A stretch of 30,546 bases of DNA, taken from positions 1 to 30,546 of the IMG/VR virus record IMGVR_UViG_3300025652_000328; one strand, 5' to 3'. The DNA comes from a virus. The notes below the pieces were generated by a model, which saw only the letters and a program-made list of their open reading frames with translations, was not told where the DNA came from and did not search any database. The number at the start of each line of letters is the position of its first letter. Position 1 is the first letter of the stretch. The position numbers and the translations under genes were made by a program. Shown here in pieces: positions 2,394 to 22,237 of the stretch.

Positions 2394-2425
2394 AATTAAC
2401 TAAATAAAATTAAAGGAAAATAAAA

Positions 2426-2791
2426 ATGGCAATAACAACTACTTGGTCAGTGACCGACATGCAACACACGGACGCTGATGGCGGTGTCTTTTTAATCTAC
2501 TGGTCTCTGATGGCTGGTAACGTAACTGGGCAAACATTAGGAGTTGATGAGTATGACTACACAGCTTTAGAAAGCGGTAAACTACGTTGTGAGTATGACG
2601 CTTCAGCGGAAGGATATATTGCATACGCAGACTTAACTGAAGCTGACGTTTTAGGATGGGTATACACTAGTCTAATTAAAGACGAAGAAACAGCGGCAGA
2701 AGCTAAAGCTCGTATTGAAACTGACCGTACTGCTAAAGTACAAAAGCAAATTGATGCCGCATCTGCAACATCAGACGGAGTACCTTGGTAA
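2426..2791 (+). CDS. Small conserved marine-phage protein, unknown function (121 aa)
   Basis: Function not known. The start begins MAITTTWSVTDMQ, followed by alternating strands with aromatic residues; this start resembles a family of about 120-residue proteins frequent next to tail fibre genes in marine phages (possibly the DUF7936 group; recalled, not searched). The C-terminal third (from about residue 85) is a charged, Ala-rich helix ending in a polar tail. No signal peptide or membrane segment. An AAAGGA Shine-Dalgarno lies about 8 nt before the ATG. It follows the tail fibre by 32 nt and precedes a small membrane protein by 4 nt, so it is probably co-transcribed with the tail genes and may be a virion or tail-assembly accessory. 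Confidence 0.75.
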   Translation: MAITTTWSVTDMQHTDADGGVFLIYWSLMAGNVTGQTLGVDEYDYTALESGKLRCEYDASAEGYIAYADLTEADVLGWVYTSLIKDEETAAEAKARIETDRTAKVQKQIDAASATSDGVPW

Positions 2792-2795
2792 TCTC

Positions 2796-3038
2796 ATGGA
2801 ACTAACACCATATTTATTTTGGAACATATTTATAACGCTGGTGTTAGCTCCAGTACTTTATGGCATTCGTGGCAATAGCTCGGAAGCCAAAAGAATTGAT
2901 ATACTCTTAAACAAAACTCGTGAAGAGATGGCAAAAGAGTATGTAACAAAAGTAGAATTAAAGGATGATATGGAAAGACTTATGGATAGAATGGATAAAA
3001 TTGGAGAAAAGCTTGACAAACTGTTTGAAGTCAAGTAG
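2796..3038 (+). CDS. Small membrane-anchored coiled-coil protein (80 aa)
   Basis: The frame is open from 2715, but the ATG at 2796, just after the stop of the preceding gene (2789-2791), gives the sensible protein; the earlier part would overlap that gene in another frame. The protein has one hydrophobic N-terminal segment (about residues 5-24, FWNIFITLVLAPVLYGI) followed by a charged heptad-like helix (about 30-80, many Lys/Glu/Asp with Leu/Met at repeating positions). This plan is seen in small marine phage proteins of unknown function and also in holin or spanin accessories. No catalytic motif. Translation is probably coupled to the gene before it. Function unknown. Confidence 0.72.
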   Translation: MELTPYLFWNIFITLVLAPVLYGIRGNSSEAKRIDILLNKTREEMAKEYVTKVELKDDMERLMDRMDKIGEKLDKLFEVK

Positions 3039-3040
3039 AA

Positions 3041-3067
3041 TAACTATAGAGAAACAACAAATAGTTA
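3041..3067 (+). promoter_or_regulatory. Inverted repeat in the gap before the glycosyltransferase gene
   Basis: A perfect 7-bp inverted repeat, TAACTAT (3041-3047) and ATAGTTA (3061-3067), is separated by 13 A-rich bases in one of the two real intergenic gaps on the plus strand. The left arm continues as AACTATAGAGAAA, which looks like the core of T7-type phage promoters (CACTATAGGGAGA in T7), but the upstream specificity part is not recognisable. There is no long U-run directly after the stem, so a rho-independent terminator is unlikely. It could be a weak promoter, a processing hairpin or chance. Confidence 0.25.
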
Positions 3068-3079
3068 AAGACAATTTTT

Positions 3080-3982
3080 ATGAAATTTTATATTCTAACC
3101 TCAAGTAATTTAGAATCATTAAAGCGTCACAACGATAAAAAGTTTAGTGGCATATATAAAAAAGATACAGTAATAGTAATCAATAGCTTAAACAAAGAAT
3201 ATGTTAAAGAAGCTAAAGAGTATTGCGAATCTAATAACTTAGAGTATTACATTACAGAAAGTAATGGTACTCCATCAAAAGGTAAGAACTCAGTATTTGA
3301 TATCTTTCTTGCCTCCGATAATGATTACTGTGTTCTTATTGACGGTGATGATTTTTTAACTGCTCATGGTGTTTGGTTTTACAAACATCTAGAGACTTTA
3401 AAAGAACCACCAGATGCAGTATGCCTCATGAACCAAACATCGTTACGTTATATAGATAATGAACTGTTAGCTCTTTATCCTTTTAGTGTAGACTATGCTG
3501 AACTTTTAAGTATGGATTACTATAAAGATTTTAGAGAAGATGGATTAAGTCACGAAAAATCAATATACTTTGAAAGCTTACATAAAAAATATTATACAAA
3601 GCAACGAAAGTATAGTGAGTGGAATGAGATTAATTGTCGTGTTACTTGGCTTAGTAAGAAAGCCGCAAAGTTTAAATTCGATGAAGATGTAGTAATCGGA
3701 GAAGATACTTTACAAATGTTACGTTTAAAACACGAAGCTTTAGAAGGTAGATTAAATTTTTATTCAACTGATGAAAACCCCATGACCTACATTTACGATG
3801 AAACGATTGGTGGGATTGTGATGGAAGAATCAGAGTATGGAAAAAATTATGAGTGGATGGATAACTATTTAACTAAATTAGAACAAATGGAAACTTTAGG
3901 ACAACTACACGAATTTACACAGTTGCCTAAACTTAAAATAGATTATCCTGAAAATTACAGAAAGGAATATATAGATGAGTAA
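3080..3982 (+). CDS. Putative GT-A fold glycosyltransferase (300 aa)
   Basis: Likely transfers a sugar from a nucleotide-sugar donor. The N-terminal half fits a GT-A/GT2-like fold: a strand start (MKFYILTSS), a second strand (VIVINSL, 31-37), a GKN segment at 68-70 before a helix, and a hydrophobic strand running into D88-G-D90-D91, the position and form of the metal- and donor-binding DxD motif. The C-terminal half is rich in Tyr, Glu and Lys, with 'GEDTLQMLR' near residues 210-218, a spot where GT2 enzymes often carry the ED catalytic base pair. No signal peptide or TM, so cytoplasmic. The stop overlaps the next start by 8 nt. It could decorate phage tail or core proteins, or alter host surface glycans. 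Acceptor unknown; family assignment moderate. Confidence 0.62.
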   Translation: MKFYILTSSNLESLKRHNDKKFSGIYKKDTVIVINSLNKEYVKEAKEYCESNNLEYYITESNGTPSKGKNSVFDIFLASDNDYCVLIDGDDFLTAHGVWFYKHLETLKEPPDAVCLMNQTSLRYIDNELLALYPFSVDYAELLSMDYYKDFREDGLSHEKSIYFESLHKKYYTKQRKYSEWNEINCRVTWLSKKAAKFKFDEDVVIGEDTLQMLRLKHEALEGRLNFYSTDENPMTYIYDETIGGIVMEESEYGKNYEWMDNYLTKLEQMETLGQLHEFTQLPKLKIDYPENYRKEYIDE

Positions 3983-6900
3983 AAAAAGAAACAAAAGAAA
4001 TAACAAAAGTGTTTTAAAACATTTAAAAGCTAAACGTGCTAACTTTAATCGTGGTGGTTATGGTGGCTATACTGATGGTTCAAGAAATAGGTCTGATTCA
4101 GTTCCAGTTCAACAACCACCAGTAAACGCAGAGCCATTTATTCCAGCCGAAGAAGAACGTGATACCTATCAAGATTATCGAGGCGATGATTATACTAATC
4201 AAGATAATAATAATTATTATGTTGAACCTGTACAAAGTGTAGAAGATGGTCAAGAACAAAATGGTGGTGGTAATACTGGAGTAGCTGGTGGACCAGGACA
4301 AGGTGGTGGTCCTTGGTGGAGACAAAAAGGATATGATTCTTACGCAGAAGCTATTGCAGATGGGTGGAAATATGTTGCTGGTGTAGGTTGGACTCAAAGC
4401 GGTGGAGGTAATAATGACACACAAGACGGTACAGGTCAAGGTCAAGTAGACCCTAATCGAACAGAACGTGTTCAACGTACTGGTGTAACTGCTGAAGCTA
4501 TTGCTCAAGGTCAAATGCCTGATGACCTTCCTACTATTCCTGATGCAGGTAAAATAGATAGAACAGGTACAGAACTTGATGCAGGTTCAGAATCTTTTAA
4601 AATGCAACAAACTGGATATGCTAGAGCTTCTGGTGTTGCTGATACAAGTAAAGAACAAGTAACTAAAGGCGATGTTACAGAAGCAGGAGATACTAAAGAT
4701 GTAACAGCTACTACAATGACTGCTGAAAAAATTACTGATGCTCCAGAAGTAACAGCCGCACAGATGGATAAGCCTGTTACAACAGCACAAGTTACTGAAG
4801 GTACAATTACAAAAGGTGATGCACCTGCTACAGTTAAACCTGAAAAAGGTTCAATGACTGAACTTATTCAAGGTAAATTAAGTGATGGTGCAACCTTTGA
4901 CCCTGCAACAGGTAAAGTAATACGACAAGACAAAGTTGCAGATGCTGAAGCTGTAAAAAGAAAGTTATCAACTATTTCTCCACAAGAACTTAAAGGCTTA
5001 CAAGACTTAGCAAAAGAACGTGGTGTTCAAGTTGAAGACCTTCCAGAATATAAAAGGATAGGAGAACGTCAAGCACAAACAGGTACAGCCGCTACAAGTG
5101 AAGCAGGTGTAGTACAACCTATTGACGAAACAGAAGAAGTTAAAGCCGCAGTAGCTGAGTATTATGCGGCTGACTATACGCCTCAAGCAAACAATGTAGA
5201 AATTGATGATGTTCCTGCATTTAGAAAAGCGGCACAACGTCAAGCACAAGTAGGCGAAGCCGCAACACGAATAGCTAATGAACTAGGTAACGCACCTTCA
5301 GTAGACTTAGAAGGTCGACAAGCTATTACAGGTACAGCACCTCAAGGAGATGCCGCACAGATTGGTGGTATTCCTACAATGCAAGCATCTAGTATGCAAG
5401 CAGTTACAGGTAAAGAACGTACAGTAGCCGCCGCAGACATGATGGCAGTTGTTGGTAACGTACCAGAGCCTATTACAGCCGCAGTAGCTGAAGACCCTGC
5501 AAGTGTAGAAGCTAAGATAGATTCAGAGCCTGTTGAGGTTATTGCCGCAGTTGCCGCATTACCACAAGAAGCTTTAGTATCTACACAGATGGAAGGCTTA
5601 CTAGCAGGAATGGAAGAAGGTAAGACTCCACTATGGGCTAAACCTGCTGTCGATGCTATCAACCAACAGATGGCTTCTAGGGGCATGTCAGTGTCCACAG
5701 TGGGCAGAGATGCATTGTTTAATGCAATCATCCAGAGTGCTCTTCCAATGGCTCAGAGCAACGCACAGGCTCTCCAAGCTAGAGCACAACAAAACTTATC
5801 AAACGAACAACAAGCTAACTTGCAACAAGCACAGTCTAGTATGCAACTAAGAATGCAGAATCTATCTAATAGACAAACTGCCGCTTCTCAGACTGCACAG
5901 ATGGCACAGCAGATTGCAGTACAACAAGGTACTTTCAATGAGAGTGCTGTACAACAAACTGCCCAGAACAGACAGCAAGTTAGAATGCAGAACATTCAGA
6001 ACCAGCAAGCTATGGCTTCTCAAGAATCTGCACAAAGACAACAAGCGGCAATAGCTACACTAAATGCTAATGCCCAGATGGACTTAGCAAACTTACAAGC
6101 TCTTAATGCGGCAGAAGGACAGAACATGTCCGCAGAGCAACAAGCAAAACTACAGTCTTACAATGCTCAAGTAAATAAAGTAATGCGTCAAGCAGACTTG
6201 AATCAGGATATGGAAAAGGCTAACCTTTCTCCTGCCTTACAAGTTGAGATGCAACGTGTATCAGAAATGAATGCGGCGGCAAAAGATACAATGACCGCAG
6301 AGCAAACAGAACGTCTTACAAATCTACAAACTCTTATAGACTTCCGTAAGACTGATGCACAGTTTGCACAACAAATGGACTTGGCTAACATGTCCAATGA
6401 GCAACAGATTGAACTAGCTGAACTATCAGATAGAGCCGCTACGGATACTGCAAACTTTACAGCCGATAATCAATTTAGATTATCTGAACTAACTGCTCAA
6501 GTACAAAGAAGTACTAGACAAGCAGAGCTTAACTCTCGTATGGAAGAAGTTAATCTTGATGCAAGTCTTAAAGTAGAACTAGCTGAACTCTCTGAACGTA
6601 ATACTACGTCTAGAGCTAACATGTCTAGTGAGCAACAAGCACGTTTAACTAACCTACAAAACTTAGTAGACTTTAGAAAAACTAATGCGGCTATGGCTCA
6701 ACAGATGGATTTGGCTAATCTTAATAATGAACAGCAAATAGAAATAGCAGAGTTAACAGAAAGAAGTGCGGCTGATGCGGCTAACTTTACTGAAGACAAC
6801 AGAATGAGACTACAAGAACTGAACACAACAGTTCAGGTAATGTCTCAAGAACAAGAGCTTCTACAAAGGGCTGACTTAGCTAAACTAAGTACAAGCGAGA

Positions 6901-7964
6901 AAGTATCACTAGCTAACCTGACAGAAAAGAACAGGGCTGATAGTGAGACAATGACTGCACAGAATCAGATTGAGTTAGCTAACTTAAACAAGAAGATGAC
7001 TGCGGCACAGAACAATGCTAACCTAGCACAACAGTTAGGTTTAGCTGAGTTAAGTAATGCACAACAAGCCGCAATGACTAATGCTCAAGTTACTGCTGGT
7101 ATGGACATGGCTAACTTTAGTACTGAACAGCAAACAGCTTTAGCTAATAGTAAGTTTATGCAAACTGTATCTCTTGAGAACATGAATGCAGAACAACAAT
7201 CTATTATGCAGAATGCTACAGCATTAGCACAGATGGACTTAGCAAACCTTAGTACACAAGAAAGACTTCAAGTAGAAAATGCTAAGAACTTTTTGACTAG
7301 GGATATGGCTAATCTTAGCAACGAGCAACAAGCTAATATGATGAAGGCACAACAAGAACAACAAAGGTTGTTATCAAATCAATCTGCTGAAAATGTGGCT
7401 CGTCAATTTAATGCACAGACTCAAACACAAACTGACCAGTACATGGCTAACTTAGCACAAGCTAATGAACAGTTTAATGCACAACAAACTAATGCAATGG
7501 AACAGTTTAATGCACAAGCTTTGAATGTTGCAGAAGCTCGAAGAGTTGGTAACGAAGCAGAAGCTAACAAACTTGAAGCACAACTTAAAACAGACGTAAG
7601 TAAATTCAATGCACAGCAAGACTTTGCAAGAGAAGAGTTTAATACGAAGAACGAAACAGCTATAGCACAATCAAACGTGGCATGGCGTAGACAAGCGAAC
7701 ACGGCAGATACTGCGGCACAGAATGAAGTTAATAGGCAGAATGCACAAAATGCATTTGGACTTACAGCCTCTGCTCAAAACTTCTTATGGCAAGAATTAC
7801 GTGACGAAGCAGACTTTAACTTTAGACGTTGGGATAATGAACAATCTAGGAAGACTTCAATATACACTGCGGCTTTAGGTAATGACACAGGTGCTTCTAA
7901 AGAAAGTAACTGGAGTAGTAATTTAACAGCAATAGGTAATTTAATAAATGGGTGGTTAAACTAA
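3975..7964 (+). CDS. Giant Gln/Asn/Ala-rich repetitive virion protein (1329 aa)
   Basis: No enzyme motif was recognised. The N-terminal 170 residues are basic then low-complexity (Gly, Asn, Gln, Asp rich, with a 'GGGPWWRQKGYDSYAEAIADGWKYVAGVGW'-type aromatic patch, shown here only in part). Residues about 170-540 are Thr/Ala/Val/Glu-rich with recurring 'RQAQTGTAAT' and 'RQAQVGEAAT' units. From about 560 there is a conserved-looking block (WAKPAVDAINQQMASRGM), then about 700 residues of helix built from LANLSNEQQ-like units, predicted as long coiled coil. A 110-residue duplication is visible (see repeat entry). The end (about 1220-1329) is polar helix and closes with aromatic residues. SD AAAGGA precedes the ATG at 3975. 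Size, composition and neighbours suggest a structural or internal virion protein; a tape-measure-like role is possible. Confidence 0.8.
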   Translation: MSKKRNKRNNKSVLKHLKAKRANFNRGGYGGYTDGSRNRSDSVPVQQPPVNAEPFIPAEEERDTYQDYRGDDYTNQDNNNYYVEPVQSVEDGQEQNGGGNTGVAGGPGQGGGPWWRQKGYDSYAEAIADGWKYVAGVGWTQSGGGNNDTQDGTGQGQVDPNRTERVQRTGVTAEAIAQGQMPDDLPTIPDAGKIDRTGTELDAGSESFKMQQTGYARASGVADTSKEQVTKGDVTEAGDTKDVTATTMTAEKITDAPEVTAAQMDKPVTTAQVTEGTITKGDAPATVKPEKGSMTELIQGKLSDGATFDPATGKVIRQDKVADAEAVKRKLSTISPQELKGLQDLAKERGVQVEDLPEYKRIGERQAQTGTAATSEAGVVQPIDETEEVKAAVAEYYAADYTPQANNVEIDDVPAFRKAAQRQAQVGEAATRIANELGNAPSVDLEGRQAITGTAPQGDAAQIGGIPTMQASSMQAVTGKERTVAAADMMAVVGNVPEPITAAVAEDPASVEAKIDSEPVEVIAAVAALPQEALVSTQMEGLLAGMEEGKTPLWAKPAVDAINQQMASRGMSVSTVGRDALFNAIIQSALPMAQSNAQALQARAQQNLSNEQQANLQQAQSSMQLRMQNLSNRQTAASQTAQMAQQIAVQQGTFNESAVQQTAQNRQQVRMQNIQNQQAMASQESAQRQQAAIATLNANAQMDLANLQALNAAEGQNMSAEQQAKLQSYNAQVNKVMRQADLNQDMEKANLSPALQVEMQRVSEMNAAAKDTMTAEQTERLTNLQTLIDFRKTDAQFAQQMDLANMSNEQQIELAELSDRAATDTANFTADNQFRLSELTAQVQRSTRQAELNSRMEEVNLDASLKVELAELSERNTTSRANMSSEQQARLTNLQNLVDFRKTNAAMAQQMDLANLNNEQQIEIAELTERSAADAANFTEDNRMRLQELNTTVQVMSQEQELLQRADLAKLSTSEKVSLANLTEKNRADSETMTAQNQIELANLNKKMTAAQNNANLAQQLGLAELSNAQQAAMTNAQVTAGMDMANFSTEQQTALANSKFMQTVSLENMNAEQQSIMQNATALAQMDLANLSTQERLQVENAKNFLTRDMANLSNEQQANMMKAQQEQQRLLSNQSAENVARQFNAQTQTQTDQYMANLAQANEQFNAQQTNAMEQFNAQALNVAEARRVGNEAEANKLEAQLKTDVSKFNAQQDFAREEFNTKNETAIAQSNVAWRRQANTADTAAQNEVNRQNAQNAFGLTASAQNFLWQELRDEADFNFRRWDNEQSRKTSIYTAALGNDTGASKESNWSSNLTAIGNLINGWLN
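6312..6971 (+). repeat. Tandem 330-nt (110-aa) duplication in the giant virion protein
   Basis: The block starting RLTNLQTLIDFRKT (6312) returns as RLTNLQNLVDFRKT (6642), exactly 330 nt later. Within both units follow QQMDLAN, EQQIE(L/I)AEL, ANFT and DN(Q/M)-type landmarks in the same order. Protein similarity is high, but many codons differ, so the duplication is old. Shorter LANLSNEQQ-like units continue on both sides. Confidence 0.75.
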
Positions 7965-9148
7965 TGGGATGGTTAAGAAAAAAAGCAAAGCAAATTGGTA
8001 ACGTATTTAAAAAGATAGGAAAGAAACTAAAGAAAGGTTTAGGTAAAATAGCTAAAGTTTTCGGTAAGTTAGGACCATTAGGTTCTCTTGCTTTATCTTT
8101 TATACTACCAGGGGTTGGAGGGGCAATATTTAGTTGGCTCAAAAACGTACCTTACTTAGGTAAAGTATTTCAAGGAATTGCTAAAGTAGGTAACTTTATA
8201 AAAGATGGTGTAGGTACTGTGTTTAATAAAGTAAGTGATGGTATTGAATGGGCAATGAACAAAGTTAGTAAACCTTTTATGAAAGAAGGTGCACGAGGAG
8301 CAGGTAGTGCATTTAGAGATTTTGTAAGTGATGTAACTAATGGATATATTGAGCCTTCAAAACAAGGAAATATTTTTGATAAAGACCTTGCATTAACAAC
8401 TAAAGATGGTAAACTACTTAGTGAATTATCTGGTGAAGAACTAGATGCATTAAAAGCTAGTGGTGAATTAGATACAATAAAAGCTTCAGCAGACTTAGGT
8501 CGAGGTCAAAGTGCCTTTGTAGGTGATAATGTTAGAAACGTAGAGTCTATGGTAGATGCTAAAGGTAATCCTATTGAACTAGCTAAAGGTGAAGTTTACC
8601 AATTTAATGAAGCTACAGGTCAACATCAAATATGGAAAAACCAAGAAGCTTATAATACTTATGCATCTGGTAAATACGACAGTGCTGTTGGGGGTTTAAC
8701 TCCTGATGATATAGTAACTGCAACACCAAAGCCTAGTATACTTGAAGGAAGACAGAAAGATAAAGGGTTTACACAATCCTTTAAAGACAGTAGAGAAGGT
8801 GCGGCTTACGCTAAACTAGCTCCTGTACAACAGTTAGGGTCTTCAATGCAAGCTGAAGAAGAAGCAATAGAGCAATATAATGCACAACAGAGTGCAAGAA
8901 AAAGTGAGTACTTTGCATATGAAGCTCAACAACAACAAGCTACTGCGGCTCAAGATAATTATTCTAGAAGTGGAGAAACCCCACAGTTTGTAAACTTTGC
9001 AGACTTTAATCCACAACAAGACCCTGCAACACAATACTTAGCTTATAGAGGTATTCAAGGCAATGTTAATCCTTATGATGTCGGTGGATATGGATTTGAT
9101 TATGAAGCATTTCTTAGAGCACAATTAGGAGACAGAGCATATGGTTAA
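7964..9148 (+). CDS. Virion-associated protein with cationic membrane-active N terminus (394 aa)
   Basis: The start is the ATG at 7964, which overlaps the TAA of the gene before it (TAATG); a GTG at 7952 in the same frame is less likely. Residues 1-36 form a strongly basic amphipathic helix (KK at regular spacing with Ile/Val/Phe/Leu/Trp on the other face), followed by a hydrophobic Gly-rich segment at about 38-60 (LGSLALSFILPGVGGAIF). Residues 60-110 contain further amphipathic helices. The rest is acidic/polar, ending in Gln-rich helix (about 285-330) and an aromatic Gly/Tyr-rich tail. No known catalytic motif. The plan suggests a virion component that contacts the host membrane or forms part of the DNA-ejection path, but this is inference. 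It overlaps the next gene by 8 nt. Confidence 0.72.
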   Translation: MGWLRKKAKQIGNVFKKIGKKLKKGLGKIAKVFGKLGPLGSLALSFILPGVGGAIFSWLKNVPYLGKVFQGIAKVGNFIKDGVGTVFNKVSDGIEWAMNKVSKPFMKEGARGAGSAFRDFVSDVTNGYIEPSKQGNIFDKDLALTTKDGKLLSELSGEELDALKASGELDTIKASADLGRGQSAFVGDNVRNVESMVDAKGNPIELAKGEVYQFNEATGQHQIWKNQEAYNTYASGKYDSAVGGLTPDDIVTATPKPSILEGRQKDKGFTQSFKDSREGAAYAKLAPVQQLGSSMQAEEEAIEQYNAQQSARKSEYFAYEAQQQQATAAQDNYSRSGETPQFVNFADFNPQQDPATQYLAYRGIQGNVNPYDVGGYGFDYEAFLRAQLGDRAYG

Positions 9149-16016: not shown

Positions 16017-16468
16017 ATATAGAAGAATGTAAACAACAAATTAAACGACACGAAGGCGAAGTGCTTTCAATATATGAAGATAGTTTAGGCTATAAAACTT
16101 TAGGAGTAGGGCATCTCTGCCAACCTGAAGACCCTGAATATACTTTAGAAGTTGGCACACCTATTGCACAGGATGTAGTAGACTTATATTATAGAAATGA
16201 TTTTACAAAACATTATAAAGAAGCTATTCATATCTATGGTAGTGAAGATGAGTTTAACACATTACCAGAAACAATACAACATGTATTAGTTAATATGTGT
16301 TTTAACTTAGGAGGCACTAGACTTTCTAAGTTTAAGAATATGTTAAAGGCTTGTAAAGCTGGGGACTGGAATCAAATGGCTGTTGAAATGGAAGATAGCC
16401 GTTGGTTTAATCAAGTAGGTGGACGTAGTAGAGAATTACAAATGATGGTAATAGGAGTAGGTGAATGA
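16013..16468 (+). CDS. Endolysin, T4-type lysozyme (GH24, 151 aa)
   Basis: Cleaves the beta-1,4 bond between N-acetylmuramic acid and N-acetylglucosamine in peptidoglycan for host lysis. The catalytic triad of T4 lysozyme (Glu11, Asp20, Thr26) is matched with identical spacing by Glu14 (RHEG), Asp23 (YEDSLGY) and Thr29 (KTLGVGHL). The later hallmark SRWFNQ...RS at about 129-140 is also present, as is a central NMCFNLGG helix. Length is close to T4 lysozyme (164). No signal peptide or SAR segment at the N terminus, so it should need a holin for export, and the next gene supplies one. The ATG overlaps the stop of the large virion gene by 4 nt. Confidence 0.93.
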   Translation: MNIEECKQQIKRHEGEVLSIYEDSLGYKTLGVGHLCQPEDPEYTLEVGTPIAQDVVDLYYRNDFTKHYKEAIHIYGSEDEFNTLPETIQHVLVNMCFNLGGTRLSKFKNMLKACKAGDWNQMAVEMEDSRWFNQVGGRSRELQMMVIGVGE

Positions 16469-16938
16469 AAAATTTATTAAAGAACATAGTAGGTGCAGTA
16501 GCTCCTACGTTAGGCACTGCTCTGGGCGGTCCTATGGGTGGTATGGCGGCGAATATGATAGCCGAAGTATTGGGAGTACCTAATACACCTAAAGCTATTG
16601 AGAAGGCTATAGCAGAAGCTACACCAGAACAAATGCTAGAACTTAAAAAGGCTGAACAAGCTTTTGAAATCCAGTTAAAAGAGTTGGACGTAGATGTATT
16701 TAAATTAGAAACAGAAGACAAGCAAGATGCTCGTGGAAAGTTTTCAAAGGATTGGACAGCTAGGATAATGGGCATTACAGTTGTTGGAGGATTCATGGGA
16801 TATATATTCCTTGTTACTTTACAACCGCCAGAACAAAACTCCGAAGCTCTTATTAACTTAGTACTAGGTTATCTCGGTGGACTAGCTAGTGCTGTTATCA
16901 GTTTCTACTTTGGAGCATCTCATACTCCTAAAGAATAA
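16465..16938 (+). CDS. Holin, GTA-holin 3-TM type (157 aa)
   Basis: Forms inner-membrane lesions that let the endolysin reach the cell wall. Layout fits the GTA_holin_3TM family: a Gly/Ala-rich hydrophobic N-terminal segment (about 8-30), a charged helix with many Glu/Lys/Gln (50-90), the family-like junction DARGKFSKDWTARIMGI (about 92-108), then two hydrophobic helices (about 104-121 and 132-150) ending with 'SFYFGASHT'. It starts inside the lysozyme stop (ATGA overlap), and the next gene begins on its own TAA (TAATG), so the three genes form a coupled lysis unit. Confidence 0.83.
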   Translation: MKNLLKNIVGAVAPTLGTALGGPMGGMAANMIAEVLGVPNTPKAIEKAIAEATPEQMLELKKAEQAFEIQLKELDVDVFKLETEDKQDARGKFSKDWTARIMGITVVGGFMGYIFLVTLQPPEQNSEALINLVLGYLGGLASAVISFYFGASHTPKE

Positions 16939-17288
16939 TGTCTGAAGCAGTAACCTTTATAACGGAAGTCGGATTCCCTATTGCCGCCGCAATGGGTCTA
17001 GGCTGGTTCGTGTCAAAGTTAATTAATAGAATTATTGACGGCATGGAAACTAAACTAGATACGTTAGATGAAAAGGTTCAAACAAGTTTAGACACAATGG
17101 AAGAAAGAGTTGCAACAAAACTTGATAGTCAATATGGTATTATTGTATCGTTAATAGATAGAGTAAGGTCATTAGACAATCAATCTTTAAAACAAGACGT
17201 ACTCCTTAAAACTTTACTCGGAGTACCTAATTTAATTGACACAGACGAAATAGCAAAAGCACAGAAAAAAGATAGGCGAAAAGATTAA
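16938..17288 (+). CDS. Membrane-anchored coiled-coil protein of the lysis region (116 aa)
   Basis: One hydrophobic segment near the N terminus (about 8-27, with EVGFPIAAAMGLGWFV) is followed by a long amphipathic helix with heptad spacing (about 30-85) and a basic, polar tail (KAQKKDRRKD). The GFPI start of the membrane segment recalls the small YvrJ-type holin-like proteins, but similarity is too short to be firm. It could be a second holin/antiholin, an inner-membrane spanin (no paired outer-membrane lipoprotein other than CsgG was found nearby), or a virion accessory. Overlaps the holin stop by one base. Confidence 0.6.
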   Translation: MSEAVTFITEVGFPIAAAMGLGWFVSKLINRIIDGMETKLDTLDEKVQTSLDTMEERVATKLDSQYGIIVSLIDRVRSLDNQSLKQDVLLKTLLGVPNLIDTDEIAKAQKKDRRKD

Positions 17289-17290
17289 GA

Positions 17291-17458
17291 ATGTTAAAAT
17301 TATGGACAGTATGGAAATATGCGTTAGGCTCATTTAATGATGAGGATACAGCACCTGTAGAAAATCAAATTACGATTATACGAACTATTATTCTTTTAAT
17401 TAATCTTGCTTGTGCTTGCTTGATTATGACTAATATTTTAAAAGAATGGATAGGATAA
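17291..17458 (+). CDS. Small membrane protein (55 aa)
   Basis: An ATG two bases after the previous stop opens a 55-residue frame whose stop is one base before the csgF ATG. The protein begins MLKLWTVWKYALGSFNDEDT and has one hydrophobic segment (about 28-50, ITIIRTIILLINLACACLIM). The WxxWKYxLGSF start recurs in small hypothetical proteins of marine phages, as I remember it, usually near lysis or virion genes. It is tightly packed and probably translated, but its function is unknown. It separates the lysis genes from the curli-type cassette. Confidence 0.65.
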   Translation: MLKLWTVWKYALGSFNDEDTAPVENQITIIRTIILLINLACACLIMTNILKEWIG

Positions 17459-17459
17459 A

Positions 17460-17954
17460 ATGAAATTAAAACCCACATTTAGAAGCGGTAAGACAGAACG
17501 TAACTGTTGGTTCTGTATATTTTTTTGGTGTATGTTTGTAGTATTTTACTCAGGATATACACTAGCAGACGAAGTAGTATTTAAATTTAAAAGCCCAAGC
17601 TTTAATGGAAACAATACTAGCTCACACTATTTAACTATAGAAAACCAAGAGCATTCAAGGAAGCTTAGTCTTAAGGCAGAGTTAAAAGCTCTTCAAGATG
17701 AAATAGAAAGGGATAAAGAAAATACAACTCTTGCTAGGTTTGTACGTAACTTAGAATCTAGAATATATGCACAATTATCTAGGCAGTTAGTTGAAAATTT
17801 ATTTGGAGAAAATCCTAGCACAGAAGGGACTATAGAATTAGAAGGTAATACCATTACTTATTCAAGTGATGGTGTATATATAACATTAACGATAACGGAT
17901 TCAAATGGAGAAACTACGACTATTACTTTGCCTATCGGTACTTTTACTTTCTAG
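17460..17954 (+). CDS. csgF: CsgF-like curli assembly protein (164 aa)
   Basis: In enterobacteria CsgF is secreted, plugs into the CsgG outer-membrane pore with its N terminus and helps curlin nucleation at the cell surface. Here an N-terminal hydrophobic signal segment (about 16-36) ends in YTLA before DE, and the predicted mature N terminus VVFKFKSPSFNGN (39-51) matches the E. coli pattern MTFQFRNPNFGGN closely. A middle helix with many charges (68-90) is followed by LARFVRNLESRIYAQLSRQLV and a C-terminal beta-rich part ending with paired 'TLTITDSNGETTTITLP' strands, both typical of the long CsgF versions in marine bacteria. SD AGGA lies just upstream. The last 50 nt overlap csgG in another frame. 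Family call is strong; activity in the phage context is inferred. Confidence 0.88.
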   Translation: MKLKPTFRSGKTERNCWFCIFFWCMFVVFYSGYTLADEVVFKFKSPSFNGNNTSSHYLTIENQEHSRKLSLKAELKALQDEIERDKENTTLARFVRNLESRIYAQLSRQLVENLFGENPSTEGTIELEGNTITYSSDGVYITLTITDSNGETTTITLPIGTFTF

Positions 17955-18702
17955 TTGTGCAGTCTTTGAGGCTAATGACGATTTATTTTTAACGAAGAAA
18001 ATACAACCCACCTCAACTTTAGATTTACAATCCACAGTATTAAAGAACCTACCTGCCGCTAAGAATAAACCTACCATAGCTGTATACCCTAATAGTTTTA
18101 AAGACTTGACAGGGCAACGAAGAAGCAACAGCACGTTTGCTTTGTTTAGTACAGCAGTTACTCAAGCCCCTGAAGCATTCCTTATTAGGGCTTTTAAGCA
18201 TACGGCTAACGGTCAATTTTTCAGAGTAGTAGAACGTGTAGGTTTAGATGACCTAACAAAAGAAAGACAACTTATCAGAAGCACTCGTAAAGAGTTTGAA
18301 GAAGATAATAAACTAAAGCCTTTGTTATTTGCAGGGCTTTTAGTTCAAGGGGGCGTGATTAGCTATGAAGCTAATTTGCAATCTGGTGGTATCGGAGCAA
18401 GGTATCTTGGTATTGGCAACAGTAAATCCTATAGGGAAGATACTGTAACTATATCATTAAGACTAGTATCGGTATCAACTGGTGAAGTACTTACAGAAAC
18501 TTTAGTATCTAAAAGTATTTTATCCACAAGTATTTCTCAAGACATATTTCGTTTTATTGAAACTGGCACTGAGCTAGTGGAGATAGAGGGTGGTGTGGCT
18601 GAGAATGAGAGTATCTCTATAGCTTTGCAAAAGGCAATAGAGACTGGGGTTTTAAATATAATACATATAGGAATAGATAGAGGCTATTGGGAATATGAAT
18701 AA
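17905..18702 (+). CDS. csgG: CsgG-like curli secretion pore lipoprotein (265 aa)
   Basis: CsgG forms a nonameric 36-strand beta-barrel in the outer membrane that exports curlin. The start at 17905 gives a lipoprotein signal peptide (KLRLLLCLSVLLL) with lipobox L-S-S-C18; the peptide is encoded inside the 3' end of csgF. Further matches to E. coli CsgG: IAVYPNSFKDLTGQ (58-71), FSTAV (81-85), ERVGLDDLTKERQLIR (110-125), GGVISYEANLQSGGIGARYLGIG (149-171, both transmembrane hairpin and turn), VSTGE (190-194), FRFIE, AIETGV and IDRGYW (257-262). At the pore constriction, E. coli Tyr51/Asn55/Phe56 align with Ser76/Leu80/Phe81, so only the Phe is kept. It stops a few residues after DRG-W, without the short E. 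coli C-terminal extension. The next gene overlaps by 8 nt. Confidence 0.92.
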   Translation: MEKLRLLLCLSVLLLSSCAVFEANDDLFLTKKIQPTSTLDLQSTVLKNLPAAKNKPTIAVYPNSFKDLTGQRRSNSTFALFSTAVTQAPEAFLIRAFKHTANGQFFRVVERVGLDDLTKERQLIRSTRKEFEEDNKLKPLLFAGLLVQGGVISYEANLQSGGIGARYLGIGNSKSYREDTVTISLRLVSVSTGEVLTETLVSKSILSTSISQDIFRFIETGTELVEIEGGVAENESISIALQKAIETGVLNIIHIGIDRGYWEYE

Positions 18703-19408
18703 AATAATAATAATAACTGCGTTAAGTATATTGTCAACATTAACTTATGCGGCAGACAACGAGATTTTTGTAGAGCAGAGTGGAGCTACTGCTAATCTAG
18801 ATTTAGAACAGTTAGGTTCAGCTAACTTGATAGGGGGATTATTATCTTCCGCAGGTTCAATGACTCCTTTTGATTTAGATGGTAGTACAATGACGCTTGA
18901 CGTAAATCAAATAGGAGATACTAATAAATTTTTAGGTGATATATGGGCTGATAACTTTACAGGCTACTTTAATTTTGATGGTAGTAGTAATGCTTTTACA
19001 ATCCAAGTAGACCCTTCTAATACATATGGAGCAGATGGTTCAAATGTAAATGTGCAAGCTACAGGTAGTAGTAATACATTTACGCTAGACCTTGCAACAG
19101 CTTCTATGTCTAGTAATACTGATTTAGATTGGATTATTAATGGTGATAGTAACATTGTTAATGCTGATATAGATTATGATGGTGCAACAAACTACATGGA
19201 TATTGATGGAGATTCAAACACTGTAAACTTTGATGGTCAAGGTTATGCAGGAGGTTACTTTTATCTCGACCAAACAGGTAGTAGTAGAACCTTTAATATA
19301 AATCAAATGAGTACAAATGATAATGACTGGCTTAAAATACTTAGCACTGGCTCTGGTGGTACTGTTTGTGTCATCCAGAATGATGGCGGCAGTTCAGTCG
19401 GTTGCTAA
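18695..19408 (+). CDS. Exported curlin-repeat (CsgA/CsgB-like) protein (237 aa)
   Basis: Likely the substrate of the CsgG/CsgF line. A signal peptide (MNKIIIITALSILSTLTYAA) precedes a mature chain rich in Asn, Asp, Gly, Ser and Thr with no long hydrophobic segments. Curlin-like Q-x-G-x-x-N units are seen at about 28-34 (QSGATAN), 39-44 (QLGSAN) and 71-77 (QIGDTN), with weaker units at 94-99, 120-127 (QATGSSN), 148-153, 171-175 and 192-196; strands of alternating hydrophobic residues sit between them. E. coli CsgA has five regular repeats of 22-23 residues; here the spacing is irregular. Two Cys lie near the end (225 and 237). Amyloid formation is inferred. The last 92 nt overlap the fecR-like gene in another frame. 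Confidence 0.72.
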   Translation: MNKIIIITALSILSTLTYAADNEIFVEQSGATANLDLEQLGSANLIGGLLSSAGSMTPFDLDGSTMTLDVNQIGDTNKFLGDIWADNFTGYFNFDGSSNAFTIQVDPSNTYGADGSNVNVQATGSSNTFTLDLATASMSSNTDLDWIINGDSNIVNADIDYDGATNYMDIDGDSNTVNFDGQGYAGGYFYLDQTGSSRTFNINQMSTNDNDWLKILSTGSGGTVCVIQNDGGSSVGC

Positions 19409-20429
19409 CGTAGGTAACATAACAGAATTACAAGGGTCGGGTAGGGTAGTAAGAGATAAAGATTATAAAGCTTCTTTATCTTTAGATATAAATAGTTATG
19501 ATAATGTCCAAACTTCTAATGGAAGAATGGGTATTACTTTTTTAGATGACAGTCAAGTTAGATTAACTGAGCACTCTGAACTTATCATAGATGAGTTTAT
19601 ATATGACCCTGACCCATCCAAATCTAAGATGGCTCTAGAGTTTGCTAGTGGTACTGCAAGATTTATCACAGGAAAACTAGCAACTATAGACAAAGAAAAT
19701 ATATTTATAAAAACTCCAAGTGCTACGATAGCTATTCGTGGTACAGACTTTACTGTAACTGTAGATGAATTAGGTAGGAGTTTAGTAATATTATTACCAG
19801 ACGATGATGGTCTTCCAAGTGGGGAGATTGTTGTTGCAACAGCTATGGGACAGGTAGTTCTTAACAAACCTTACCAAGCTACTACAGTTTCTATGTTTGA
19901 AACTAAACCAAGCAACCCTGTTATCCTTGACTTAACACTTGAGTTAATTGATAACATGTTAATTGTAAACGCACCAAGAGAAGTGAAGCAAGATGAAGGA
20001 CAAAATGGAAGTAGTAACACTAATGTTCTTGATGTTGACTTCCTTGAGTTTGATGATTTAGAAATAGACTATTTAGCTGAAGACGATTTAGAGTTTACAG
20101 AATTAGATGTCAATTATCTTGACGTAAACTTTCTTGAAGACTTGTTAGATATTATAGAAGATGTAAACGAGCTAGACCAAACAGAATCTTTACTACGAAC
20201 AGATATAAATTTAAAGGGTACTCAGTTGGGATTTGATTCTAACACACAAATAAATACTTTCTTGACAGATAATGTTCTAACTTTCTATAAAGTTTTAGAA
20301 GATACTGTTCGTTTAGATTTAGATAGGGATGGAGGATACACAGTACTCTTAATACAAAATGGAAAGGGAACTCAGCTTGTAATAAATGGAGGAGGAAATT
20401 CTAGTATCACTATAAACCAAGGAGATTAA
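19317..20429 (+). CDS. Exported FecR-domain protein with acidic repeat and curlin-like tail (370 aa)
   Basis: The ATG at 19317 (or 19323) gives a clean signal peptide (LKYLALALVVLFVSS, then MMAA), although it lies inside the end of the curlin gene; starts further down lose it. Residues about 30-148 form a FecR domain: GNITELQGSGRVVR, DNVQTSNGRMGITFLDDSQVRLTEHSELIID and the hallmark IKTPSATIAIRGTDF (131-145), shown in parts. FecR domains are periplasmic; classic FecR relays ferric citrate signals, but this one lacks the cytoplasmic anti-sigma part and TM anchor. Residues 237-283 are strongly acidic with repeated FLEFDDLEIDYL-like units. Residues 341-370 (LLIQNGKGTQLVING, then SITINQ) resemble curlin strands. 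It is followed by a CHASE2 cyclase, a common bacterial neighbour of FecR proteins. Signal partner unknown. Confidence 0.83.
   Translation: MIMTGLKYLALALVVLFVSSRMMAAVQSVANVGNITELQGSGRVVRDKDYKASLSLDINSYDNVQTSNGRMGITFLDDSQVRLTEHSELIIDEFIYDPDPSKSKMALEFASGTARFITGKLATIDKENIFIKTPSATIAIRGTDFTVTVDELGRSLVILLPDDDGLPSGEIVVATAMGQVVLNKPYQATTVSMFETKPSNPVILDLTLELIDNMLIVNAPREVKQDEGQNGSSNTNVLDVDFLEFDDLEIDYLAEDDLEFTELDVNYLDVNFLEDLLDIIEDVNELDQTESLLRTDINLKGTQLGFDSNTQINTFLTDNVLTFYKVLEDTVRLDLDRDGGYTVLLIQNGKGTQLVINGGGNSSITINQGD
20419..20424 (+). promoter_or_regulatory. Strong Shine-Dalgarno before the 26-aa ORF
   Basis: AAGGAG lies 5 nt before the ATG at 20430, inside the last codons of the FecR gene. It is one of the best ribosome sites on the plus strand and marks the small ORF, not the cyclase ATG at 20507, as the point of ribosome entry. 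Confidence 0.6.
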
Positions 20430-20510
20430 ATGGGCTATAAAAGATTTATAAAATATAAGTATGGTTATCCTCTGTCTAGGATAGGTACTTTACTAGATAT
20501 AACAGTATGA
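20430..20510 (+). CDS. Putative 26-aa leader-like peptide coupled to the cyclase
   Basis: An ATG immediately after the FecR stop, with AAGGAG 5 nt upstream, opens a 26-codon frame that ends in TGA at 20508-20510. That stop overlaps the cyclase ATG as ATGA, the same junction used by other genes in this window. The peptide is basic and aromatic (MGYKRFIKYKYGYPLSRIG...), with no signal or membrane segment. It may be a real small protein, a remnant of a longer gene, or only a device that brings ribosomes to the cyclase start, which has no good SD of its own. No homologue is recalled. Confidence 0.45.
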   Translation: MGYKRFIKYKYGYPLSRIGTLLDITV

Positions 20511-22237
20511 AGTGGGCACTTACTTTACTGGGTATACTTACCCTACCTTTACTATTTAACTCACAAGCCTTAGAAGTCTTAAGGCTTAAAACTTTTGATG
20601 CCGTTGTAGAAACTCCAAATGCTACAGGGCATTTTACCGTATTAAATATTACGGAACAAGACTTAGATAATCTCGGAGGCTACCCTCTACCACGCCAAGA
20701 CTTAGCTAAGATTCATAAAGACATTATGGATGCAGGTGCTTATGGTGTTGGGTGGGTTATGTTATTTCCACATGCAGATAGAATGGGTGGAGATGATGAG
20801 TTTGCTTTAGAGCTTTCTAAGTCTGCTAGTGTTATAGCTATGCCAGAAGTAGACAACGGTTTATATCCTGCTACTCATGGCACGGTTATCAAAGGACCAG
20901 ATATAACTTTACCACAAGCTTCTGGTTTCTTATCGAATGTCGATATACTAAAACAATCTACGAGTCAAGGTGCTATCTCTGCACCAGTAGATGTTGATAA
21001 TCTTGTAAGACAAATACCATTACTACAACAAACACCAACAGGATGGGTAGCTTCTTTTGGCACAGAAGTTTTAAAGATACTTGGGGGTGGTAATACTTAT
21101 CAAATTGTAACCAATCAAAATGGTATTGACAAGATAAGAGTCAGAGGAATACCACCAGTAGATACAGATAGCCTTGGTCGTAAATGGATTAGCTGGGTAG
21201 ACACACCACAAACCACACTAAAAGAAATGAATGTAGAAAGTACGTTTGTCTTTGTAGGTTTTACTGCTAAAGGAATCTCGCCTCAACTTGCAACACCTGT
21301 CGGGTTATTAGAACCTCACAAAATACAAGCGGCACTTTCAGAAAGTATGTTGCTTGACAGTCCTCAAATTCCAGAGTATAGATTACTTGCAGAACTATTC
21401 ATATTAATCCTCTCAGGCTTACTCACAGCCCTCTCAATCAATTATCTAGGTGTCACTAAGGGGGTAGTATCCTTTCTAGTTTTATTGCCTCTAATGGGCT
21501 ATTTTGAATACTACTTTGTTACCAATAATTTACTGATAGATTTTACATGGAGCATAATAAGTATGACACTTATTGCTACCCAACAATTCTATCTAAACTT
21601 TAGAACACAATACAAACTTAGACAACAAATTAAGAAACAGTTTGAACATTACCTTGACCCACGACAGGTTAAACAATTACAAGATGACCCCAGTTCACTG
21701 AAGTTAGGAGGAGATAGACGAAGATGTACCTTCCTCTTTACAGATGTCAGAGGTTTTACAAGTCTATCAGAAAGATTAGAGCCAGAAGAAGTCACAGAAA
21801 TTATGAACAAAGCCTTGACTATTCAGGCTGATGCGGTCAAAAGAAATGGTGGTATGGTAGATAAATATATTGGAGATGCAATGATGGCAGTCTTCAATGC
21901 CCCAATAAACTTGGAAGACCATGAGAATAAAGCAATCCAAACAGCGTTAGAAATACACCAAGATATGGAAGAAGCCAAGCTAGGAATAGAGATAGGTATT
22001 GGCATAAATACAGGAGAGGCGGTAATAGGTAATATGGGAAGCGATACACGTTTTGATTACTCAGCTATAGGTGATGCAGTTAATTTGGCGGCAAGACTTG
22101 AAAGCTCTACCAAAGAAGTTGGTGAAGATATAGTTATTGGTGTGAATACAATAACAGGTTCGACTACCGAAGGTAAATTACTAGAGCCAATTTACGTCAA
22201 AGGTAAGTCAGAACCTATTATTATCTACACTATTTAG
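20507..22237 (+). CDS. CHASE2-domain class III adenylate/guanylate cyclase (576 aa)
   Basis: Probably makes cAMP from ATP under control of an envelope signal. An N-terminal TM/signal anchor (1-20) leads to a periplasmic CHASE2 sensor (about 22-290; FDAVVETPN start, GVGWVMLFPHADRMGGDDEF motif region, FVFVGFTAKG near the end). Three TM helices follow (about 294-315, 318-337, 343-360), then a linker helix and the catalytic domain (about 405-575). Both metal aspartates are present, D413 (FTDVRGFT) and D457 (KYIGDAMMAVF). The purine-selecting lysine K453 is present, with Ser519 at the second position, where Asp or Thr is usual for adenylate cyclases. The transition-state pair N526 and R530 is intact. 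Length and order are typical of bacterial CHASE2 cyclases, with no truncation. The stop overlaps the convergent gene's stop by 3 nt. Confidence 0.93.
   Translation: MKWALTLLGILTLPLLFNSQALEVLRLKTFDAVVETPNATGHFTVLNITEQDLDNLGGYPLPRQDLAKIHKDIMDAGAYGVGWVMLFPHADRMGGDDEFALELSKSASVIAMPEVDNGLYPATHGTVIKGPDITLPQASGFLSNVDILKQSTSQGAISAPVDVDNLVRQIPLLQQTPTGWVASFGTEVLKILGGGNTYQIVTNQNGIDKIRVRGIPPVDTDSLGRKWISWVDTPQTTLKEMNVESTFVFVGFTAKGISPQLATPVGLLEPHKIQAALSESMLLDSPQIPEYRLLAELFILILSGLLTALSINYLGVTKGVVSFLVLLPLMGYFEYYFVTNNLLIDFTWSIISMTLIATQQFYLNFRTQYKLRQQIKKQFEHYLDPRQVKQLQDDPSSLKLGGDRRRCTFLFTDVRGFTSLSERLEPEEVTEIMNKALTIQADAVKRNGGMVDKYIGDAMMAVFNAPINLEDHENKAIQTALEIHQDMEEAKLGIEIGIGINTGEAVIGNMGSDTRFDYSAIGDAVNLAARLESSTKEVGEDIVIGVNTITGSTTEGKLLEPIYVKGKSEPIIIYTI

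Follow-up and report, generated by a model that had tools for sequence, protein, structure and literature searches.

A curli secretion, FecR and CHASE2-cyclase cassette in an HTVC115P/HTVC103P-like marine podophage

The locus and its phage backbone

The DNA analysed here, called the window, is a 30,546-base virus record (IMG/VR IMGVR_UViG_3300025652_000328), and the absences reported for it apply to this fragment only. Between positions 17460 and 22237, five plus-strand ORFs form a co-directional cassette, as a sequence-only reading had proposed. The same reading described the phage as otherwise T7-like. This holds for the replication genes, which are of T7 type (PolA, primase/helicase and endonuclease I), but among three pelagiphage genomes compared the nearest to the window is HTVC115P, followed by HTVC103P. 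HTVC115P also topped the PolA matches in the phage collection, and the window PolA is 50% identical to that of HTVC115P and 49% to that of HTVC103P across about 600 aa, as against 24% over 300 aa for HTVC023P. Moreover, primase and helicase are fused in a single ORF of the window, whereas they are separate genes in the HTVC023P type. Given the distant PolA and the fused ORF, we rejected an assignment to the HTVC023P-type podophages; the phage is HTVC115P/HTVC103P-like, with a different backbone. Autographiviridae and T7-like phages carry a single-subunit RNA polymerase, and the corresponding PHROG found no match among the ORFs scanned in this fragment. Rfam gave no match at gathering scores across the window, and promoter- or terminator-like sites showed no excess over shuffled sequence.

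Upstream of the cassette lies a lysis gene coding for a phage lysozyme/endolysin (16013 to 16468, plus strand; Pfam Phage_lysozyme 8.7e-10, PHROG endolysin 1.2e-17). It is followed by the gene of a 157-aa protein (16465 to 16938, plus strand) that matches phrog_1544 (2.7e-26), a family of unknown function, and that perhaps is holin-like, judging from its sequence; in HTVC023P-like carriers this gene is located downstream of the cassette. The gene adjoining csgF (16938 to 17288, plus strand) encodes a 116-aa protein with a hydrophobic N-terminus, a weak match to holin PHROG 4898 (1.2e-4) and, judged by eye, a probable coiled coil. Its family is present in 78 of 84 loci, the other six being HTVC115P, where neither the cassette nor FecR was found, and five loci in which the DNA starts at most 100 bases from csgF; HTVC008M and Melnitz have two copies each. 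By its position, this gene is probably the histidine kinase reported before csgF by Wittmers 2022 (PMC9599517). We reject the kinase assignment: such an enzyme would have dimerisation and ATPase domains, and no kinase domain was found in any of ten members scanned, at E values up to 1. A 55-aa ORF with one hydrophobic stretch, read from sequence and translation, comes next (17291 to 17458, plus strand), and there is no space for a counterpart where csgF follows immediately (e.g., in locus L006).

Genes of the cassette

Profile searches bore out four of the five proposed identities, CsgF, CsgG, FecR and the CHASE2-cyclase, without a single failure. The csgF gene (17460 to 17954, plus strand; Pfam CsgF 4.1e-20) codes for the pore-associated curli factor. 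Its N-terminal motif FKFKSPSFNG is of the NPxFxG type common to bacterial CsgF, and residues P46, F48 and G50 are invariant in an alignment of eight phage and bacterial CsgF sequences. By E. coli CsgF, we take this stretch to be the pore peptide. A search of PDB sequences with CsgF alone retrieved no CsgF. The csgG gene (17905 to 18702, plus strand; Pfam CsgG 1.7e-49) encodes the outer-membrane curli secretion pore, and residues 5-264 match the E. coli CsgG structures 3x2r/6l7a at 3.5e-44. CsgG is probably a lipoprotein; a loose lipobox pattern occurs in 69 of 83 phage CsgG proteins. In line with the sequence-only reading, the window ORFs covered by the Pfam scan gave no match to CsgC, CsgD or CsgE. 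Of note, CsgE is said to boost output and not to be essential (PMC7029224).

The curlin-like repeat protein (18695 to 19408, plus strand), with a hydrophobic N-terminus, is identified more weakly than its four neighbours. Pfam gave nothing above cut-off, and the NCBIfam NF007506 CsgB match (E=0.0064) scores 16.2 bits, far below the curated cut-off of 165. On the other hand, a profile built from the phage curlins recovers curlin genes adjoining csgF/csgG in bacterial genomes, with best values of 4e-18 and 3e-15, and the Q/G/N columns are invariant across phage relatives. The repeat score has a median of 14.0 in 80 phage curlins, whereas for 501 other ORFs the top 5% begins at 9.4 and the maximum is 13.3. 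This score is partly circular, since the curlins behind its matrix had themselves been picked up by the phage profile. AF2 predicts a beta-solenoid with intermediate confidence (pLDDT 66.7, pTM 0.66). Foldseek returned no PDB match at E <=0.001 for this model, and a second look showed generic beta-helices with no curli structure among the best 50 matches listed. Neither the curlin nor the FecR profile found a credible match in PDB sequences. A curlin-like gene is present in 82 of 83 CsgG loci, and the remaining locus stops just past csgG.

The FecR-domain protein (19317 to 20429, plus strand) matches Pfam FecR at residues 64-149 (5.6e-11) and, nearly over its full length, phrog_37870 (4.2e-80); no other Pfam family is above cut-off. 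It is probably exported. Its structure model is poor (pLDDT 38) and unusable for structure search. By eye, its C-terminus resembles a curlin repeat, but we rejected this likeness because the matrix score is 0.4, against 9.4 for the top 5% of other ORFs (p=0.11 versus shuffles). The last gene (20507 to 22237, plus strand) codes for a CHASE2 sensor joined to a class III adenylyl cyclase (Pfam CHASE2 1e-22, Guanylate_cyc 4.2e-19; PDB matches 6fht and 2w01). The catalytic residues D413, D457, K453, D523, N526 and R530 are intact, and among 58 full-length cyclases each of the six is conserved in 57 or 58. We take them to comprise the two metal-binding Asp, the Lys/Asp adenine pair and the Asn/Arg transition-state pair.

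Conservation of the five genes as one block

The cassette is conserved as one block. Every one of the 70 IMG/VR loci that carry CsgG and extend 4 kb or more downstream has curlin, FecR and cyclase genes, and every one of the 52 loci seeded on FecR that reach 1.9 kb or more upstream has CsgG; these counts come from related contigs, some of them common to both sets. The scattering that would speak against a cassette was not seen; thus, that the five genes travel as a set is strongly supported. Median gaps from csgF to the cyclase gene are -53, -8, -92 and +1 bases. The cassette is also under purifying selection, with median dN/dS values of 0.21 for csgF, 0.11 for csgG, 0.13 for the curlin, 0.15 for FecR and 0.15 for the cyclase; csgF rises as high as 1.09 in some pairs. 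In the CsgG tree, where one bacterial row (L098) is placed by a long-branch join, HTVC023P-like copies fall among those of HTVC115P-like phages, a pattern consistent with the block having moved from one pelagiphage lineage to another.

Function and comparison with known systems

We hold it reasonably probable that the cassette combines a reduced type VIII (curli) line with a FecR-CHASE2-adenylyl cyclase sensor, is carried as one block and most likely serves to alter the surface of the infected cell. The block is mostly co-directional, its genes overlap or abut, and in HTVC115P/HTVC103P-like marine podophages it sits next to the lysis genes; it may be read as a single transcript. In the infected cell, CsgG would form an outer-membrane pore into which the N-terminal peptide of CsgF would plug, and the curlin-like protein would be exported and then assemble, presumably into fibres, on the cell surface. 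Exported FecR, perhaps in contact with the periplasmic CHASE2 domain, would sense the envelope or fibre export and switch the cyclase, with cAMP acting on some target. The likeliest benefit would be an altered surface that excludes other phages or holds sibling cells nearby, both ideas being already in print. A literature search found no demonstration of fibres made by a phage, and the lack of CsgE and the single curlin-like protein of the window also count against the fibre part. The sensor part faces the absence of a recognised cAMP receptor in the probable host order and in 16 phage records. The lack of clumping with the carrier phage Melnitz, the curlin protein's failure to reach a Pfam cut-off, the poor FecR model and the csgF pairs of high dN/dS also weigh against this reading.

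The same data weigh on the alternatives. It has been suggested that the pore acts as a pinholin/secretin (Buchholz 2022) or in uptake (Zaragoza-Solas 2020), and we regard as unlikely a repurposed CsgG-CsgF channel for lysis timing or uptake that makes no fibre and has the curlin and sensor gene products as its regulators or substrates. The missing CsgE gate fits such a channel, as does Melnitz, a cassette carrier with no clumping in cytograms or TEM (PMC9004378). Among the first 83 CsgG loci, the lysozyme or 157-aa gene lies upstream of the cassette in 47 and downstream in 7, which also favours a link with lysis, but neither gene was found in 15 loci having more than 5 kb upstream. Furthermore, both CsgG and the N-terminal part of CsgF belong to the curli type, the curlin-like gene is nearly universal and constrained, and Buchholz took csgA/B as absent, yet the Melnitz record annotates curlin-repeat proteins.

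A cassette that is mainly a cAMP device, flooding the cell with cAMP or draining its ATP while the curli part is carried along, seems quite improbable to us. Its catalytic site is complete and the cyclase is constrained, but the curli genes are equally so, and in Melnitz a Ser replaces the transition-state Asn and the cassette persists anyway. In addition, 117 genomes from the probable host order yielded no class III cyclase, and a cNMP-binding domain is present in seven of them. The one such protein scanned combines this domain with an acyltransferase and does not resemble CRP, so that no CRP-type receptor was recognised in these genomes. Nor was a cNMP-binding domain found in the 16 phage records, 15 of which have the cassette FecR. 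The proposal of the sequence-only reading that cAMP resets host physiology thus lacks a known receiver, and the puzzle is sharpened: cAMP would be made in a host order without a recognised class III cyclase or CRP. Within the curli-plus-sensor reading that we favour, a rather doubtful extension is that the phage gives an amyloid surface and a private cAMP circuit to a host lineage with neither, FecR-CHASE2 reading curlin export or the envelope and the target being other than CRP.

The reading of Wittmers 2022 (PMC9599517), in which FecR controls the fibre genes in response to iron, draws on the FecR domain itself and on the argument that iron limits surface-ocean microbes. We consider it very unlikely. 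In alphaproteobacterial genomes, 34 of the 150 CHASE2 positions listed have FecR at most 5 kb away, where about one is expected (all 150 + 150 listed rows used). FecR proteins of the Fec type contain an anti-sigma portion in the cytoplasm and have FecI and FecA as partner genes. In the phage protein only residues 64-149 match, with no second domain, and no cassette ORF matches a sigma-factor or FecA-type family in Pfam; a Fec-type anti-sigma regulator was therefore rejected. Since FecR and CHASE2 recur side by side as a sensor pair in bacteria, the phage FecR probably does not serve as an iron regulator.

The outputs of this bacterial pair vary. According to the accessible portions of the two sources, a FecR-CHASE2 operon belongs to the Burkholderia biofilm regulator BiofilmReg, with a histidine kinase as output (PMC5192318), and another, with a cyclase as in the window, to a Campylobacterota cAMP cluster (PMC9239204). 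In both, FecR adjoins the CHASE2 sensor, and those portions, unlike the window, mention no curli genes. SpoIIE was the output in one bacterial genome that we examined. Bacterial csg operons, in turn, keep CsgF, CsgG and curlin repeats close together in most loci, as in the window, but no phage-type FecR or cyclase match was present near csgG in 20 loci, several of them partial. Accordingly, no bacterial locus with csg, FecR and cyclase genes together appeared among 17 loci (several partial) and three alphaproteobacterial csg loci, and csgG was absent from 17 bacterial loci chosen for FecR or CHASE2-cyclase. E. coli curli uses both CsgA and CsgB, in contrast to the one curlin-like protein of the window.

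Contrary to what the sequence-only reading assumed, the full set had already been described, in HTVC023P-type podophages and pelagimyophages, by Wittmers 2022 (PMC9599517), who also reported its expression in metatranscriptomes. That module has the same genes and order ("kinase" gene, CsgF, CsgG, CsgA/B-like, FecR and often adenylate cyclase) and likewise no CsgC/D/E. The named podophage carriers are of the HTVC023P type, with a mean of about 58.8 kb, whereas the backbone of the window is HTVC115P/HTVC103P-like and carries a single curlin gene. What is new here is the placement of this published cassette in a further phage lineage and backbone. Two published readings are also questioned, the kinase before csgF, which has no kinase domain, and the iron role of FecR, which goes with CHASE2. 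Pelagibacter phage HTVC008M and Methylophilales phage Melnitz keep the cassette order of the window, with CsgG identities of 44% and 41%, respectively; both are myophages and have a second curlin-like gene before the cyclase and two small upstream genes. As cultured carriers, they make these questions testable.

Identity and cohesion of the five genes

The cassette is real and conserved and, judging from its sequence, appears functional. All five open reading frames proposed in the sequence-only reading were found, in one direction on the plus strand: csgF (17460-17954), csgG (17905-18702), a curlin-like gene (18695-19408), a FecR gene (19317-20429) and a CHASE2-cyclase gene (20507-22237). A Pfam search of the window ORFs upheld the identities of CsgF (4.1e-20), CsgG (1.7e-49), FecR (5.6e-11), CHASE2 (1e-22) and the cyclase (4.2e-19). 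Moreover, CsgG residues 5-264 align to E. coli CsgG structures, and the nearest known structures to the cyclase domain are the bacterial adenylate cyclases 6fht and 2w01. The curlin-like protein carries the least well supported name of the five, with nothing above the cut-off in Pfam and a weak match to CsgB in NCBIfam (E=0.0064). It shows a Q/G/N pattern of repeats and is predicted to form a beta-solenoid (pLDDT 66.7, pTM 0.66). In addition, a profile of its phage family picks up curlins close to csgF/csgG in bacterial loci (L085, 3e-15; L088, 4e-13; L090, 4e-18).

A CsgG search returned 80 IMG/VR loci which, together with HTVC008M, Melnitz and the window, gave a first set of 83 CsgG-bearing loci. 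All 83 have CsgF, 82 have curlin, 71 FecR and 66 the cyclase; by coordinates, genes were absent solely where the available DNA stops within or right after the preceding gene. A second set of 113 further loci was retrieved with FecR and CsgG alignments. Here, CsgG was present in 52/52 FecR-seeded loci having at least 1.9 kb upstream, and curlin, FecR and cyclase in 70/70 CsgG loci having at least 4 kb downstream; the samples are non-independent and non-random, because the loci are partly first-set contigs over another range, were all ranked by window likeness and represent the best 80 of more. Wittmers 2022 (PMC9599517) reports that GOV2.0 modules do not always include FecR and cyclase, and the complete cohesion (100%) is therefore valid only for the present sample. 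In 12 loci (L049, L276, L277, L280, L282-L285, L287, L289, L290 and L294), the cyclase gene lies 93 to 611 bases past FecR and points the opposite way to the other cassette genes.

In an annotated phage collection, CsgG, FecR and cyclase searches found 7, 6 and 8 records, respectively. Four Melnitz-type and two HTVC008M records were common to all three; the leftovers were two Acinetobacter phage records (cyclase) and one 1.5-kb Salmonella phage record (CsgG). The latter, OR851715.1, titled Salmonella phage S.Kent 1-2-1, is possibly host DNA.

Phage backbone and position of the block

The window PolA is 50% identical to that of the pelagiphage HTVC115P, 49% to HTVC103P and 24% over 300 aa to HTVC023P. 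For NrdB and NrdA, identity to the HTVC115P proteins is 70% and 59%, respectively. Among 194 viral loci, which share the non-independence of the cohesion samples, the best backbone fit was HTVC115P in 138, HTVC103P in 16 and HTVC023P in 8, with weak or no signal in 32. Two rows of the CsgG tree labelled as HTVC023P-type, one by a modest backbone score (L061) and the other by gene order alone (L255), fall in two places among HTVC115P-like rows (support 97/96 and 94/92), which is compatible with transfer between podophage lineages.

The lysozyme or the 157-aa gene (16465-16938 in the window) lies before csgG in 47 of the 83 first-set loci and after it in 7, all within the 8 scoring HTVC023P-like. 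Neither gene was found in 15 loci with more than 5 kb upstream, and 14 were too short for placement. By inference, the window's host is likely SAR11; a study of HTVC103P-type relatives (PMC8528129) states that the hosts of more distant relatives are unknown. Elsewhere in the window, ORFs of 796, 1329 and 398 aa within 3-9148 matched nothing in PHROG or Pfam at E 0.001, and 3080-3982 gave a weak glycosyltransferase match.

Upstream genes and sequence constraint

Wittmers 2022 (PMC9599517) places a histidine kinase, sometimes two, upstream of csgF. From its position, we infer that the small upstream gene (16938-17288) is this "histidine kinase". Its product is 116 aa long in the window and ranges from 92 to 116 aa across ten aligned members, none of which (0/10) has a kinase domain; HTVC008M and Melnitz each carry two copies. 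A 55-aa ORF with a single hydrophobic stretch (17291-17458) sits between this gene and csgF, and relatives such as L006 have no space for it.

Median pairwise dN/dS was lowest, at 0.11, for both the small upstream gene and csgG, followed by curlin (0.13), FecR and the cyclase (0.15 each) and csgF (0.21). Individual pairs exceed these medians (csgF maximum, 1.09), and some values may be distorted by overlapping frames. Catalytic residues were counted in the 58 cyclases of at least 500 aa out of 67 matches. The two metal-binding Asp residues are kept in 58/58, as are the Lys and the Arg, the adenine Asp in 57/58 (Ser in L065) and the transition-state Asn in 57/58. The exception in the latter case is Melnitz, whose cyclase (L002:12502-14553) may be impaired by the change to Ser.

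cAMP receivers, the sensor pair and published modules

The probable host order was set by exact match of a SAR11 probe sequence to one 1.2-Mb genome of 240. Searches covered class III cyclases and cNMP-binding domains. The former were absent from all 117 genomes of the order (0/117), and the latter occurred in 7/117, as six frames of 870 aa and one interrupted by a contig end. The one such protein scanned is not of CRP type, since its cNMP-binding domain is fused to an acyltransferase. L309:919-3264 encodes a cNMP-binding and acyltransferase protein, with a similar-scoring cNMP-binding match in 7/117 genomes. One of the 117 also had a CsgG match, a 456-aa protein that matches LpoB as well and need not be a curli protein. 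No cNMP-binding domain was detected (E up to 0.1) in 16 phage records (13 IMG/VR records of 49-58 kb, HTVC008M, Melnitz and HTVC115P), 15 of which carry FecR.

In the 240 alphaproteobacterial genomes, with 150 places listed for each family, a phage-type FecR match lies within 5 kb of at least 34 of the 150 CHASE2 places; if places were spread evenly over a 3-Mb genome, about 1 would be expected. In G102, a genome of the probable host order, a CHASE2-SpoIIE protein is followed 1.3 kb on by a FecR protein. In L173:6049-10919, from the same order, genes for a CHASE2-SpoIIE protein, an unknown protein of 435 aa and a FecR protein follow one another. Campylobacterota FecR-CHASE2 clusters are reported to hold also a cyclase, a phosphodiesterase and a TPR protein (PMC9239204), and the response regulator of a Burkholderia FecR-CHASE2 operon is reported as interrupted in a strain without biofilm (PMC5192318). 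Given these recurrent pairs, the block carried by the phage appears to combine a curli line with a kind of envelope sensor that bacteria already possess. None of the bacterial loci examined combined curli genes with a FecR-CHASE2-cyclase sensor.

The first account of the curli module came from pelagimyophages (PMC7029224), and that of Melnitz was treated as a pore lacking genes for fibres (PMC9004378). The sequence-only reading was aware of no description covering the whole set at work together; Wittmers 2022 (PMC9599517) does describe the whole module, with FecR and cyclase. In the literature searched, which excluded preprints and most subscription papers, nothing places the cassette in phages of HTVC103P type, and the word "curli" is absent from the available part of a study of HTVC103P-type relatives (PMC8528129). 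The GOV2.0 "Podoviridae" modules of Wittmers may already include such phages, unnamed. Altogether, this kind of cassette is published; the window adds a further phage lineage, casts doubt on the published reading of two genes and sharpens the puzzle of the cAMP.
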